From an uncultured Eubacteriales bacterium (GTDB taxonomy: Bacteria; Bacillota_A; Clostridia; Lachnospirales; Cellulosilyticaceae): a DNA stretch of 9,916 nt. The position numbers and the translations under genes were made by a program. Shown piece after piece: positions 3,450-8,544 of this stretch (its first letter is position 1; every line of letters begins with the position of its first letter). The notes beneath the pieces were generated by a model. It saw only the letters and a program-made list of their open reading frames with translations. It made no database searches and had not been told where the DNA came from. The stretch lies in contig USPX01000058.1 of the NCBI GenBank assembly GCA_900556665.1, forward strand, positions 1-9,916, written 5' to 3'.

Positions 3450-4481
3450 ATGGAGTATATTATGACATACTTTACGGAGTTTAGGAAGAATGCCATACAA
3501 GAAATTCAGTTAGTTGATCGAGAAGCAAAGCTTACTCCTATTAGAGTAGAGTTTACGCATATTGAAACTAAGATGGAAAATGAAGCATTTATAAAAAAGC
3601 TTAAGGCAGTGAATCCAATATTTATAAGACATATCATGCCTATTACATATAAAACAGTGTTAACAAATAAAAAAAGAGAAGACTTACCACTTATTTTAGA
3701 AGGGGTACAAGAAGTATGTAGATTAAAAGAAAAAGAATATTTTTCAGTCCAAGCACGCTTAGTAAAAGGGGCTATGGAAGATTATAATGCCAAGGACATA
3801 GAAGTTTTTATAGGAGAATACTACGAAAACAAGGGGTGTGAACCAGTATTTTCTGATGAAGAAGTTATTAATTATGATGTAAATGTGATTTCGATATTTA
3901 TAAGAGAAAGTCAGTGTTATATAGGCTATTCAAAATCAGAAGACAATCTTAACTTTCATAGTGATGAATATCGCATTTTAGGTAAAGAAACAGCAGAAAT
4001 ATCAAGAGCAGAAAACAAACTCAAAGAAGCAATTAGCAAATTTAAAATCAAAGTAAAAGGGGAAGGTTACGCCCTAGATATAGGCGCAGCGCCAGGAGGC
4101 TGGACAAAAGTATTAGCCGACAAAGGTTTCAAAGTAGATGCCGTAGACCCAGGAGAATTACATGAAGCGCTACAAAATAATAAAAATATCACACATTACA
4201 AAGCCCATGTAGAAGACGTACAATTTAATCACAAGTTCGCACTTATAACCTGTGATATGAATGTAGATGCCCTCATCGCAGCCAAAGTAATGTGTGATCT
4301 ACATAATCAAATTCAAGAAGGGGGCAGTTGCATCCTCACTCTCAAACTACCTTTCAAAGACGAAGACAAACGTATCCAAGAATCCATCCAAATACTAGAA
4401 CAAAAATACACAATCACCACCATCAAAAACCTCACCCACAATCGCCGCGAAGTCACCGTCTATATGCATCCTATATTCTAA
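3450..4481 (+). CDS. RlmM/FtsJ-like RNA 2'-O-methyltransferase
   Basis: The 343-residue cytoplasmic protein has two parts. Residues about 90-165 look like a THUMP-type RNA-binding region, ending VNVISIFIRESQCYIGYS. Residues about 180-343 form an FtsJ-type methyltransferase domain: ISRAENKLKEA, the SAM-binding LDIGAAPGGWTKVLADKG (209-226) and VDAVDPGE. The FtsJ K-D-K-E catalytic tetrad appears intact as K190, D269 (CDMN), K299 (LTLKLP) and E334 (NRREVT). This layout matches RlmM, which methylates the 2'-O of a 23S rRNA cytidine, so rRNA is the most likely target. The exact base is not known. Two starts are possible: ATG 3450 with AAGAAGG 8 bases upstream, or ATG 3462 with GGAG at 3452-3455. 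The last 100 bases before and including the stop are unusual, with 33 C and only 7 G (4381-4480). Structured copy 1 follows 11 bases after the stop. Confidence 0.82.
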   Translation: MEYIMTYFTEFRKNAIQEIQLVDREAKLTPIRVEFTHIETKMENEAFIKKLKAVNPIFIRHIMPITYKTVLTNKKREDLPLILEGVQEVCRLKEKEYFSVQARLVKGAMEDYNAKDIEVFIGEYYENKGCEPVFSDEEVINYDVNVISIFIRESQCYIGYSKSEDNLNFHSDEYRILGKETAEISRAENKLKEAISKFKIKVKGEGYALDIGAAPGGWTKVLADKGFKVDAVDPGELHEALQNNKNITHYKAHVEDVQFNHKFALITCDMNVDALIAAKVMCDLHNQIQEGGSCILTLKLPFKDEDKRIQESIQILEQKYTITTIKNLTHNRREVTVYMHPIF

Positions 4482-4492
4482 AAAGATGGGAG

Positions 4493-4764
4493 GTATATGC
4501 TAAAAAGGTGGGATAACGGTAGAGAACGCTTGGGGTGATGGGTGAGAATAGCTGCACCTTCCGTAATCTATGAGAGTCTAAGTTCGATGCTTAAAGTAAC
4601 GCTGTGAACTCGCTACATTGCATTTCGCTCAAACAGCACAGCTAAGGGCACTTTAAGCATCTTCACTAAGACTCTCAAAAGATTACTCCACAGGCAGACT
4701 ATTCTTACCCATCACCCCAAGCTACTCTCACGTTATAACCGTTTTACATATACTTTGTAGCGAG
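4493..4764 (+). ncRNA. Long structured RNA element, copy 1 (unrecognised family)
   Basis: This is a single 261-base interrupted hairpin, read here on plus. Basal pairings are 4493-4499/4747-4753, 4501-4505/4742-4746, 4513-4518/4731-4736 and 4521-4524/4725-4728. The main helix is 4528-4551/4699-4722, 24 bp with one G-U. Next come a bulged A at 4698 and helix 4552-4555/4694-4697. A 7x7 loop follows (ACCTTCC/TCCACAG), then helices 4563-4569/4680-4686 and 4572-4579/4669-4676. The loop AAGTTC/TTCACTA leads to a 12-bp helix (4586-4597/4650-4661). The loop AAC/TAAGGGC leads to the apical helix 4601-4606/4637-4642, which closes a 30-base loop. CTCGCTAC in that loop (4609-4616) can pair with GTAGCGAG at 4757-4764. 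It lies in the 3' UTR of the RlmM-like gene. The plus-strand assignment rests on the single G-U pair and on the matching position of copy 2. No reading frame fits it. A mobile palindrome is the main alternative. Confidence 0.72.
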
Positions 4765-4804
4765 AGAAAAGAGGTTAAAGCAAAGCAGATTTAGGAGAAA
4801 TAAA

Positions 4805-4848
4805 AAAGGCTACTAATTAGTTATAGCTTGTACTAATTAGTAGCCTTT
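4805..4848. terminator. Bidirectional terminator between the two structured elements
   Basis: Arms 4805-4821 and 4832-4848 are perfect 17-bp complements around a 10-base loop. The U tract is better on minus (six T opposite 4802-4807) than on plus, where TTT is followed by ATG. It is the first simple terminator met by transcripts from the RlmM-like gene (plus) and from the MBOAT/DHHW operon (minus), after each has passed one structured element. Confidence 0.82.
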
Positions 4849-4896
4849 ATGTAGTGCTTTTTTCTAACTAATAGGTGTCATTATCAACCCTAGAGT

Positions 4897-5133
4897 CCAA
4901 CGTTTTCCGCTATAAGGAAAGCTGAGGTGACAGGGGGAAGTAGTCTACCTATGGAGTGATTTGATGATTTTCTTAGTGAAGAGAATGAAAAAGGGTTTAG
5001 GCGAAGTGTTTGAAGCTGAGCGTTAGCGAAGCAAGTTTTTCGCCGTTTTTTTCATTCTCGAACTTAGAAAATCACAAATCACGGAATGTGTAGCTACTTC
5101 CCCCTGTCACCTCAGCAAGCCTTCCTTTAGCGG
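4897..5133 (-). ncRNA. Long structured RNA element, copy 2 (same family, opposite strand)
   Basis: This is a 227-base interrupted hairpin (4907-5133). By motif order it reads on minus. Pairings (plus coordinates) begin with basal 4907-4912/5128-5133 and 4914-4919/5122-5127, then the main helix 4921-4943/5094-5116, a perfect 23 bp. A bulged A lies opposite 4944, followed by helix 4945-4948/5090-5093. A 7x7 loop follows (minus strand ACATTCC/TCCATAG), then 4956-4962/5076-5082 and 4965-4973/5066-5074. The loop AAGTTC/TTCACTA leads to a 12-bp helix 4981-4992/5048-5059. The loop AAC/TAAACCC leads to apical helix 5000-5005/5039-5044. Layout and loop sequences match copy 1, but the helices differ in sequence. 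A possible loop-to-flank pairing (minus CTAACG with CGTTGG, one G-U) uses 5021-5026 and 4897-4902. The basal helix includes the stop codon of the DHHW gene, so the element would be the 3' UTR of that operon. Confidence 0.72.
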
Positions 5134-6242
5134 TTCAGCCACCCTAGTTTCACTTCTCTAGTGAAGTTTTGTATATTATACAGGAATAACACATCTTTAA
5201 TATTATTTTCATTTGCATAGCTTGTAATAGGTATATTAGAGAGTCTTAAATCAATCATATGAATTTCTTCATAATGATTCACTAAAAATGGCACAAGACT
5301 ATTGGCATAAGAGTCCTTAATGATTAAAAGCTTTTTCCCATTTTTAGTGCCTGTTTTTATTTTTATAAGTGGATGATTCCCATTTAAGAATACATTATAT
5401 TTATCTTTTGTGTCTAAGTGTGTATAAGTATATAAACTATTTGTTGTTGTATTGTCTGAGACATAAGTTACTTCTACATCAACTTTTTTCTTTGGTTCAA
5501 AGATTTGAATGGTATCTGGCTTAGCAAAAGTGAAGTTACCTCTTGAAAACAGTGTGCCATAAAATTCTTTGTGTGCATCGATTATATTAAAATCATCTAG
5601 ACTAAGTGGTGTAAAGCCTGCTGATTTTGCAAATTCAACATAAGCATAGTACGCACCTAAAGTTGTCCAGTGATGATCTGTTTTATAATAAATTGGCTGC
5701 GCTTTTTTATCTAATAATGCATCTAATACATTTACTTTATGGACATTATGATTAAGCTGTCCATAAAATCTATGAATAGAATCACCTTCGTCACAAGGGG
5801 TTGCATACTTTGGTAATTTGTAGCTTAGAATCTTTGTAGCTGTAGGTGAGATTAACGTATACACATTGAAGTTTTCAGCAAATGTGTTTATATATTGAGC
5901 GTTTTTATCAAGCTGGTCAAAGTTTTCATCTGTGAAATTTTGCATAAGATGGCCATCACGTCCAATGAAAACCCCATTATTATCTTTTTTTCTTAAGGCA
6001 AGTTCTGTGTAAGCTTTAACACTTATAAAGTTATTGCGTAGTGGAAACTGGTCTGCAATGTAAGTTTCAAAGTCTTTTCCAAATGAACCATCTAAGAAAG
6101 TTTTCTTTGTGAAAGTAGGCATACTGGCTAGATCACGGTTTTCAAGCTCTGAAATAGCTTTATCTTTAGCAAAGATTTGAAGTGCAAAAAAGCCAAATAC
6201 ATAAGCGACTAATGTAACGCCCATAGCTATTTTTAATTTCAT
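5127..6242 (-). CDS. DHHW protein (AlgJ/AlgX-like), polysaccharide O-acetylation
   Basis: The product has 371 residues from the chosen start MKLKIAMGVTLVAYVFGFF, whose hydrophobic segment is a signal anchor or uncleaved signal. The remainder lies outside the membrane. The catalytic signature TDHHW is at 188-192 and KDSYANS at 309-315, with Ser311. Together they give the Asp-His and Ser elements of the SGNH-like fold used by AlgJ and AlgX to move acetyl groups onto alginate. A longer frame opens at 6296, but AGGAG at 6250-6254, 7 bases before the ATG at 6242, makes this the better start and removes an 18-residue overlap with the MBOAT gene. The gap to that gene is 10 bases, so the two are probably translationally coupled. 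The partner MBOAT protein would supply acetyl groups across the membrane. Alginate itself is not implied. The glycan substrate is unknown. Confidence 0.88.
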   Translation of the reverse strand: MKLKIAMGVTLVAYVFGFFALQIFAKDKAISELENRDLASMPTFTKKTFLDGSFGKDFETYIADQFPLRNNFISVKAYTELALRKKDNNGVFIGRDGHLMQNFTDENFDQLDKNAQYINTFAENFNVYTLISPTATKILSYKLPKYATPCDEGDSIHRFYGQLNHNVHKVNVLDALLDKKAQPIYYKTDHHWTTLGAYYAYVEFAKSAGFTPLSLDDFNIIDAHKEFYGTLFSRGNFTFAKPDTIQIFEPKKKVDVEVTYVSDNTTTNSLYTYTHLDTKDKYNVFLNGNHPLIKIKTGTKNGKKLLIIKDSYANSLVPFLVNHYEEIHMIDLRLSNIPITSYANENNIKDVLFLYNIQNFTREVKLGWLNR

Positions 6243-6252
6243 AAAAAGTCTC

Positions 6253-7638
6253 CTAAAATCTAAAGTATAAGAATGGATTAAATGTTGAATCCACAAGGTA
6301 AGCTGTACTAATTACTAAAGTGCCTACATAGAAGAGGTAGAGTACAAAGTCAGGTGATTTTTGTTTAAGCTTATTCATAAGTGGCACGGCAAATAAAATG
6401 CCAATACCTAAAATAACACTATAATTTGTAAGGTTATAAAGTGTTATTTGATCTGAGAAAGGCGTACCCGCTAAGTTAAACATAACCTTTAAATAAGCAA
6501 GTCCCTCTGATAACCTATCATGTGAGAAAAATACCCAGCTTACTAATATCATTAAAAGAAGATAAATATGACTAAGTGCCTTTGGCAATTTATTTAATAA
6601 GTCTAGTAAAAAGCTTCTTTCTAATATAATAAGTACAGCAAAGAAGAGTCCCCATACAATGAAGTTCCAACCAGCACCGTGCCAAAAGCCTGTTAAGAAC
6701 CATACCACAAGTAGATTAAAGAATAAGCGTTTTTTACTCACACGATTCCCACCTAAAGGAATGTAAACATATTCTCTAAACCAGCCACCTAAAGTCATAT
6801 GCCAACGTCTCCAGAACTCAGAAACGTTTGTCGCAATATAAGGGTAGTTAAAGTTCTCAGGGAAATTAAAGCCAAGCATTTTACCAAGGCCTATAGCCAT
6901 ATCTGAGTAACCGCTAAAGTCAAAGTAAAGTTGTAGTGCAAAGGCAATAATGCCAAGCCAGCTACCAAGAACAGTAAGCTCATGAACATTTGTGTTTGAA
7001 ACACTATCCCATAAACGTCCAATATTATTGGCCAGAAGTACCTTTTTACCAAGACCTTCTATAAAGCGTATGCTGCCTTCTCCAAAAGAATCTAAGTTTG
7101 TAGTACGCTCATTAAGCTCCTTTTCAACTTTATTATAGGTAACAATAGGCCCTGCAATAAGCTGTGGAAACATAGCTACATAAGCACCAAAGGAAATGAT
7201 ATTTTTTTGTACACCAATTTTGCCACGATATAAATCAATAGTATAAGACATAGTTTGGAAAGTGTAAAAAGAGATACCAATAGGTAAAGCAATATGTAAA
7301 AGTTCTATAGGCTCAGATAATAAATGGTTTACATTACCTATCATAAAATCAGCATATTTAAAGAAGCCAAGCATACCTAAATTAGTTGCAATGGAAATGA
7401 AAAGGACAAGCTTTGGAATAACCTTATGGTTCCTAAAATAATCAATTAATCTACCACAGGTATAATCAAGTACAGTAGAAAAAATCATAATAAATACATA
7501 AATAGGCTCGCCCCATGCATAAAAGATGAGGCTAGCCATAAATAAAATAAAGTTACGTAATTTTTTAGGAACAATAAAGTAGGTTATTAAAAATAATGGT
7601 AAAAATATAAATAAGAATAATAAACTACTAAATACCAT
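6253..7638 (-). CDS. MBOAT family membrane O-acyltransferase (AlgI-like)
   Basis: The 461-residue polytopic membrane protein has many hydrophobic segments, for example at 3-23, 29-41, 46-58, 77-93, 112-127, 223-240, 305-318, 323-339, 355-371, 405-419 and 431-449. The MBOAT core is clear: YFDFSGYSDMAIGLGKMLGF at 238-257, NYPYIATNVSEFWRRWHMTL at 264-283 with His280, and the TGFWHGAGWNF block at 316-326 with the essential His320. This matches AlgI/PatA/DltB-like enzymes of about 450-500 residues, which pass acyl groups, usually acetyl, across the membrane to extracytoplasmic glycans. It sits between the lipoprotein and DHHW genes. AGGAG at 7645-7649, 6 bases before ATG, overlaps the upstream stop codon, and its own TAG stop overlaps the next ribosome binding site. 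The acetyl acceptor cannot be read from sequence. Confidence 0.93.
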   Translation of the reverse strand: MVFSSLLFLFIFLPLFLITYFIVPKKLRNFILFMASLIFYAWGEPIYVFIMIFSTVLDYTCGRLIDYFRNHKVIPKLVLFISIATNLGMLGFFKYADFMIGNVNHLLSEPIELLHIALPIGISFYTFQTMSYTIDLYRGKIGVQKNIISFGAYVAMFPQLIAGPIVTYNKVEKELNERTTNLDSFGEGSIRFIEGLGKKVLLANNIGRLWDSVSNTNVHELTVLGSWLGIIAFALQLYFDFSGYSDMAIGLGKMLGFNFPENFNYPYIATNVSEFWRRWHMTLGGWFREYVYIPLGGNRVSKKRLFFNLLVVWFLTGFWHGAGWNFIVWGLFFAVLIILERSFLLDLLNKLPKALSHIYLLLMILVSWVFFSHDRLSEGLAYLKVMFNLAGTPFSDQITLYNLTNYSVILGIGILFAVPLMNKLKQKSPDFVLYLFYVGTLVISTAYLVDSTFNPFLYFRF

Positions 7639-7647
7639 TGTGTTCTC

Positions 7648-8544
7648 CTATTTTACTGCATCATTAAAGTTAGCTACAAGTGCATCGATATTATTATCCA
7701 TTGCAAAGAATACATAGTTACCTTTTACAACTGTTTGGCGGTTTTCGTAAGCTTCTTGAAGTGATGGGTAAAGGTGACGTGGGTCAATGTCTCCACCTCT
7801 TTTAGTAATACCCGCTTTGACTTTTTCAATATCAGCAGCGTCTTTTACTTCAAATACAGCAATTTCAGTAATATGTGCACTCATCATTGGTGCAACAACT
7901 TTATAGCTTTTAAGCATACTTGTATCAATACCATACATATCATTAATAAGTTCACTATCTAAATCCATTGTAGCTGGGAGATCTACACCAGCTACAACTT
8001 TAGTGTAAACTTCTTCTGCTGTAAGAGAAGTTACTTCAGGTTTAGTAGAAGCTTCTGGTTTAGTTGTATTTTCAGGTTTAGTAGAAGCTTCTGGCTTAGT
8101 TGTGTTTTCAGGTTTAGCAGAAGCTTGAGGCTTAGTTTGAGCCTGAGGTTTAGTAGAAGCTTGTGGTTTAGCAGAAGCTTGTGGTTTAGTTGTAGCCTCT
8201 GGCTTTGTAGAAGCTTGTGGTTTAGCTGAAGTTTCTGGTTTAGTAGATGTAGCAGGTTTGCTTTCTACTTTTTGAGTATCTTCTTTAACTTCTTCTTTTT
8301 GTGTAGTTTCAGCACTTTCAGGTGCTTTTTCCTCTTCTTTTACTTCTTCTTTTTGTTCAGTATCAGCTTGTTCAGCATCAACTTGTTCTTCAGTAATTTC
8401 TGTTTCAGTAGTTTCTTCTGGTGTAGTTTCTGTATTTTCTACTGAAGTTTCAGGTGTAGTTGGTGTAGTATCTTTGGCACCACATCCAATAAGTGTTGTA
8501 CTAAGAGCTAGTACGGCCATAAAATATGTAAATTGTTTTCTCAT
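7648..8544 (-). CDS. Lipoprotein with KP-repeat linker and DUF4358 domain
   Basis: The 298-residue protein has a lipoprotein signal peptide. MRKQ is followed by a hydrophobic stretch and lipobox LIGC, with Cys21 as the lipidation site. Residues 22-95 are Thr/Glu-rich and acidic. Residues 96-173 are thirteen six-residue repeats of the KPxxxx type (KPEAST, KPQASA, KPENTT), a likely extended linker through the cell wall. The C-terminal part (about 174-298) matches the DUF4358 pattern as I know it: LTAEEVYTKVVAG, SAHITEIAVFEVKD and YVFFAMDNN. DUF4358 lipoproteins are often found beside MBOAT and DHHW genes in Clostridia, but their role is not established. A glycan-binding or assembly role on the outer membrane face is only inference. 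AGGAG at 8551-8555, 6 bases before ATG, fixes the start. It is the first gene of the operon. Confidence 0.88.
   Translation of the reverse strand: MRKQFTYFMAVLALSTTLIGCGAKDTTPTTPETSVENTETTPEETTETEITEEQVDAEQADTEQKEEVKEEEKAPESAETTQKEEVKEDTQKVESKPATSTKPETSAKPQASTKPEATTKPQASAKPQASTKPQAQTKPQASAKPENTTKPEASTKPENTTKPEASTKPEVTSLTAEEVYTKVVAGVDLPATMDLDSELINDMYGIDTSMLKSYKVVAPMMSAHITEIAVFEVKDAADIEKVKAGITKRGGDIDPRHLYPSLQEAYENRQTVVKGNYVFFAMDNNIDALVANFNDAVK
8026..8259 (-). repeat. Coding tandem repeat, 13 x 18 bp (KP-rich linker)
   Basis: Thirteen in-frame units of 18 bases encode residues 96-173 of the DUF4358 lipoprotein. Each starts with Lys-Pro and ends mostly in Ser/Thr-rich triplets. Neighbouring units are similar at the DNA level, so copy number can be expected to vary by slippage or recombination, changing linker length without a frameshift. 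Confidence 0.9.

Follow-up and report, generated by a model that had tools for sequence, protein, structure and literature searches.

An inverted pair of long imperfect palindromes behind two convergent genes of an uncultured Eubacteriales bacterium

Two related stretches of DNA, of 260 bases (copy 1) and 229 bases (copy 2), lie in opposite orientation between two convergent genes of an uncultured Eubacteriales bacterium, and each is predicted to fold into a single long hairpin. The pair is a real and unusual feature of the window, by which we mean the whole stretch of DNA that was analysed (9,916 nucleotides of contig USPX01000058.1, assembly GCA_900556665.1). The hairpins are likely to be folded signals at gene ends, either as RNA or as DNA. 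The reading that we prefer, to which we give a probability of roughly two in five, is that this is an inverted pair of long imperfect palindromes behind convergent genes, in which the internal loops of the predicted hairpins are likely read by a protein and the arms have likely been kept matched by template switching at the DNA level rather than by RNA pairing alone.

Results

Position, orientation and fold. Each copy reads in the sense direction of the gene that precedes it and is placed at the stop codon of that gene (Table 1). Copy 1 is separated by 11 bases from the stop codon of the RlmM-like gene, which ends at 4481. For copy 2, the outer stem as predicted takes in the DHHW stop codon (5127-5129). 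An earlier reading made from the letters of the window (hereafter the sequence-only reading) had set the limits of the feature at 4493-5133, which proved right, and had proposed one hairpin of more than 220 bases for each copy. The folds agree with this proposal, with a z score of -12.48 for copy 1 (computed on 4485-4765) and of -11.68 for copy 2 (on 4870-5165), and for neither copy was any of 200 shuffled sequences as stable.

Table 1. Coordinates of the hairpins, their internal loops and the neighbouring features in the window
Feature	Positions	Strand	Evidence or use
RlmM-like 23S rRNA 2'-O-methyltransferase gene, upstream of copy 1	3450..4481	+	FtsJ domain, E 1e-13
Period-22 direct repeat: RlmM-like gene end with stop codon, recurring as outer 5' arm of copy 1	4472..4513	+	Tandem Repeats Finder score 70
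Copy 1, long hairpin	4493..4752	+	Fold, -120.9 kcal/mol
Copy 1, core	4541..4709	+	Used in alignment and covariance model R1
Copy 1, 7x7 internal loop, 5' side, ACCTTCC	4556..4562	+	Fold
Copy 1, inner loop, AAGTTC side; AGT pairs with ACT in predicted fold	4580..4585	+	
Copy 1, inner loop, TTCACTA side	4662..4668	+	Fold
Copy 1, 7x7 internal loop, 3' side, TCCACAG	4687..4693	+	Fold
Perfect 17-pair palindrome, midway between the copies	4805..4848	.	Fold of 4753-4904
Copy 2, long hairpin	4905..5133	-	Fold, -116.2 kcal/mol
Copy 2, core	4933..5104	-	Used in alignment and covariance model R1
Copy 2, 7x7 internal loop, 3' side, TCCATAG	4949..4955	-	Fold
Copy 2, inner loop, TTCACTA side	4974..4980	-	Fold
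Copy 2, inner loop, AAGTTC side	5060..5065	-	Fold
Copy 2, 7x7 internal loop, 5' side, ACATTCC	5083..5089	-	Fold
DHHW family gene, preceding copy 2 in the reading direction of the copy	5127..6242	-	DHHW domain, E 7e-44

Neighbouring genes. The name RlmM is carried by some homologues of the product of 3450-4481. The DHHW protein has its C-terminus at the same end point as 28 homologues (tails compared by eye), so that its stop codon probably predates the stem of copy 2. Both genes look housekeeping-like and are convergent. The window further encodes a protein with CBM_3 and CBM_X2 domains, an alpha/beta hydrolase, a rhodanese, a methyltransferase, a glutamate-cysteine ligase and a DHHW-MBOAT-DUF4358 set, and all of its genes are of an ordinary chromosomal kind. 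The names that their homologues carry indicate Cellulosilyticaceae or nearby Lachnospirales. The order DUF4358-MBOAT-DHHW (5127-8544) recurs on a Pusillibacter faecalis plasmid and thus looks like a conserved gene set, which perhaps serves O-acetylation. In the DUF4358 gene, an 18-base repeat, present in about 11 imperfect copies, encodes a Lys-Pro-rich linker (7998-8282).

The perfect palindrome midway between the copies has a run of T immediately after it when read on the minus strand; on the plus strand the run comes about ten bases later. It is probably a terminator common to both genes. A consensus terminator scan of 4300-5400 listed a single site, on the plus strand and within the apical part of copy 2; the scan admits loops of 3-8 bases only, hence the palindrome, whose loop has 10, was not listed. 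The long hairpins resemble intrinsic and bidirectional terminators in being stable structures past stop codons with Watson-Crick stems, but they differ from them in that neither is followed by a T run, in their large internal loops, and in that a separate terminator-like palindrome (4805-4848) is present. A second palindrome with T-rich tails (2656-2699), similar to that at 4805-4848, lies between the convergent rhodanese and methyltransferase genes, with no long hairpins adjoining it.

Pair-by-pair comparison. Copy 2, when read on the minus strand, aligned with copy 1 helix by helix, as had been claimed. Over the seven helices and 64 aligned pairs of this comparison, which rests on two sequences from one contig, 38 pairs were unchanged, 25 were changed on both sides with pairing kept (9, 1, 2, 3, 0, 6 and 4, helix by helix), one was changed on one side only (G-C to G-U) and none was broken. 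Thus 25 of the 26 changed pairs are double changes. The hand count of about 25 in the sequence-only reading was exact, its single one-sided change was found again, and its counts for each helix match ours except for an unchanged AGT/ACT helix that had been taken as loop. Within the 46-pair core, all 16 of the changed 5' positions had a changed 3' partner (hypergeometric P 1.7e-11, under a null that ignores any mechanism that keeps the arms equal). Transversions make up 11 of the 25 double changes, and transversion double changes cannot go via a G-U intermediate. Because tracts would be copied from arm to arm, changed pairs would be expected to cluster along the helices under arm copying; their clustering was not significant (permutation 0.24), which counts against this mechanism.

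Internal loops. The 7x7 loop differs between the copies by one base per side, and the bulged A (4698 in copy 1) is common to both; both observations had been made before and are confirmed here. The identity of AAGTTC/TTCACTA also stands, although not all of it is loop, since in the predicted folds AGT and ACT form three pairs, bordered on one side by an A-A mismatch and on the other by a 2x3 loop. The more general claim that the unpaired parts are almost invariant was overstated: identity between the copies was 20 of 25 for the unpaired stem columns and 59 of 92 for the paired ones, a difference that is not significant (Fisher p 0.16), and 29 of the 55 positions of the apical region were kept. 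On the evidence of the two sequences on which the argument rests, the persistence of several internal loops, unpaired and similar in both copies, appears a better argument for function than the paired changes are. In the apical loop of copy 1, CTCGCTACA (4609-4617) is complementary to TGTAGCGAG (4756-4764) just outside the hairpin, a possible pseudoknot as judged from base complementarity; no equivalent partner was seen in copy 2 when it was checked by eye.

G-U pairs, outer arms and gene-end repeat. In the folds of both hairpins only 2 of 175 pairs are G-U, against 14 of 103 in 6S and 4.5S RNA (Fisher p 3e-5), a yardstick that consists of the predicted folds of two RNAs of another organism, E. 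coli (183 and 114 nt). With copy 2 folded in longer flanks, the pair of hairpins has 6 G-U pairs in 187 (p 0.0013 against the same yardstick), and the aligned helices have 1 in 128. The stems extend outward beyond the part that is common to both copies. When these outer arms were compared copy against copy, their similarity was at chance level (reached by 416 and 226 of 1000 shuffles). Within each copy, by contrast, the two outer arms do pair with one another, and only 19 and 1 of 2000 shuffles paired as well, the arm tested for copy 2 including four bases from the shared helix.

The direct repeat that forms the outer 5' arm of copy 1 matches the gene end at 18 of 20 bases, with an alignment score that was reached by 0 of 2000 shuffles. 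When the end of gene 1 was compared with copy 1's 3' arm in reverse, the score was at chance level (431 of 2000 shuffles), and so was that of the end of gene 2 compared with copy 2's 3' flank in reverse (1125 of 2000 shuffles). With two of the three tests at chance, the seeding of arms from gene ends therefore rests on one case.

Open frames on the opposite strand. Both copies contain a short open frame on the opposite strand, at 4613-4711 (minus) and 4931-5026 (plus), with translations that are alike (..LWSxLxxxLVKxxK..). The differences between the copies gave no clear codon-position bias that would indicate a coding function (22, 25 and 30 over 68 sites each), so that these frames are probably a by-product of DNA similarity. 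A search for translated relatives of the hairpins returned three candidates, none at E <= 10.

Searches for relatives. Among the 4227 families of Rfam 15, none matched either hairpin above its gathering score, in line with the earlier statement that no named family was recognised. Rfam matches over the whole window at E up to 5 numbered 13, none of them on a hairpin. A search of 4480-5165 at E up to 10 gave six matches, four of which overlap the terminator-like palindrome, the remaining two lying on the minus strand of copy 1, where they scored 15.3 and 13.1 bits, far below their cut-offs of 60. A strict loop pattern, run over a genome collection of 84,980 species by its own description, had one match, in a Bacteroidales MAG. 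Both copies of the window fit the loop pattern and neither was returned, so the source stretch is absent from this collection; other absences from it say little. The match in the Bacteroidales MAG sits in a long open frame, which we take to be secDF-like, and its fold is unlike these hairpins; it was rejected as a chance match. The covariance model R1, built from the core alignment of the two copies, was run with stricter filters over 101 genomes related to this MAG and had hits at E <= 10 in 2 of them (best E 1.6), both partial. The relatives of the MAG are apparently not spore formers, because Spo0A_C was above cut-off in 0 of 398 and was seen weakly in 2.

Loop patterns over viral contigs returned at least 120, 3 and 34 stretches. 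A script applied to these loci found 161 sites among the matches listed, with 14 of 20 flanking pairs at best; the best sites were the three strict matches, which share one identical sequence and form no long hairpin, and they were set aside as chance. With blastn, the two copies matched 1 and 0 of 72,556 plasmid records and 6 and 3 of 50,697 phage records, in short chance matches only. The titles and the opening parts of abstracts covered by a literature search hold no description of such an element, nor does the available part of a 2010 survey contain anything alike (PMC2864571).

Discussion

If the preferred reading is right, the transcript of each gene would run through its own hairpin to the shared terminator-like palindrome. 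An mRNA that ends in a very stable hairpin would be shielded from 3' exonucleases, and the hairpin may also serve to separate it from read-through that comes from the convergent gene. Candidate sites of recognition by a protein would be the internal loops. At the DNA level, replication may stall at the palindrome, whereby a mutation in one arm would be copied to the other, and loops would escape being copied away only through selection on them. The paired changes would then need no selection for RNA pairing, because arm-to-arm copying of DNA makes them. As they would come free under such copying, it is the retained 7x7 loop, 2x3 loop and bulged A that ask for selection. Template switching is described as turning imperfect palindromes into more perfect ones in the available part of a published account (PMC7202029). 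The hairpins have in common with such corrected quasipalindromes that their arms are more alike than mutation alone allows, and they differ in that both copies retain the same irregular loops within the arms.

DNA-level matching of the arms, or a need for both strands, fits the hairpins because G-U pairs are few, transversions occur among the double changes, the outer arms are paired and a gene end is repeated. These four results fit such matching or such a need at least as well as they fit RNA selection, and they speak against ordinary selection on one strand of RNA as the whole story. The scarcity of G-U pairs would also follow if both strands had to fold.

The sequence-only reading held that a functional RNA was shown by compensatory changes. 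The conserved long hairpin with its paired changes stands, and RNA function is possible rather than established, given the few G-U pairs, the 11 transversions in 25 double changes, the extended stems and the gene-end repeat. In its full form this explanation supposes a structured RNA family, as a 3' UTR element or a small RNA, in which selection for RNA pairing alone made the compensatory changes, and we regard it as somewhat unlikely. It would account for the compensation in 25 of 26 changed pairs (in two sequences), for a lone one-sided change that is G-U and not A-C on the strand read, for the loops and bulged A common to both copies and for the sense orientation behind both genes. The hairpins are also similar to 6S RNA and SRP RNA in that each is one long irregular hairpin with internal loops, but they have far fewer G-U pairs, occur as two copies at gene ends and match no Rfam family. 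A family of this kind is further opposed by G-U pairs below those of the two yardstick RNAs in either folding (2 of 175, and 6 of 187 when copy 2 has the longer flanks), by outer arms paired outside the shared part, by the gene-end repeat in copy 1 and by the finding of no relative in the collections searched.

Integron attC sites have GTTRRRY/RYYYAAC core boxes and an integrase. A second alternative is that the hairpins are mobile or repeated palindromic DNA of the REP/BIME type, which a transposase-like protein would recognise as folded single-stranded DNA and which would have spread into gene ends in the form of inverted pairs. In the available parts of two accounts (PMC8266576, PMC1525189), these elements are extragenic palindromes of about 20-65 bases, often in inverse pairs and frequent between convergent genes, and the E. 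coli REP stems carry a conserved mismatch bulge. The present pair shares with them, as there described, the inverted arrangement with a linker between convergent genes and the unpaired irregularities of the stems, which here are nearly all Watson-Crick; at 229 and 260 bases, the hairpins are several times longer. The GTAG tetranucleotide of REP/BIME was absent from about 20 bases 5' of either stem on both strands. Because of this and of their size, the hairpins are not filed under REP/BIME. The outer arms of the copies are unrelated, unlike the fixed ends of an element, the plasmid and phage searches gave chance matches only, no transposase domain was present in the nine window proteins scanned, and the window has no TnpA-REP gene and only the two hairpin copies. 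A direct repeat, ACCCTAG, is found on either side of copy 2 (4887-4893 and 5141-5147), placed as a target-site duplication would be, and would favour mobility; its right-hand unit lies within the DHHW coding sequence, whose length matches that of homologues, and beside copy 1 only AAAA was seen when a target-site duplication was looked for. Taken together, we consider an origin of this type unlikely.

Long palindromes are costly to keep, which counts against their having no function. That these are old palindromes of no function, with arms homogenised by template switching and loops alike by shared ancestry only, would agree with the almost perfect complementarity of the arms and with loops not significantly better kept than paired columns (p 0.16), but is highly improbable, since the 7x7 and 2x3 loops are kept in both copies and, to judge from the available part of PMC7202029, template switching should have erased them.

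The preferred reading can be extended to a new class of giant gene-end hairpins, with arms seeded from gene ends and rewritten by template switching and protein-read loops held by selection, so that covariation would arise without selection on RNA; in this extended form we hold it to be very doubtful. If the arms are homogenised at the DNA level, matched double changes would no longer prove a functional RNA, which concerns covariation-based RNA discovery generally. Were the arm-copying reading true, standard covariation tests would accept such elements as 'structured RNAs' even though their pairing is maintained at the DNA level. If the hairpins act as RNA instead, they would represent a large uncatalogued gene-end RNA in Clostridia. 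In either case, the frequency of G-U pairs in covarying palindromes would offer a cheap and testable discriminator between DNA-level and RNA pairing.
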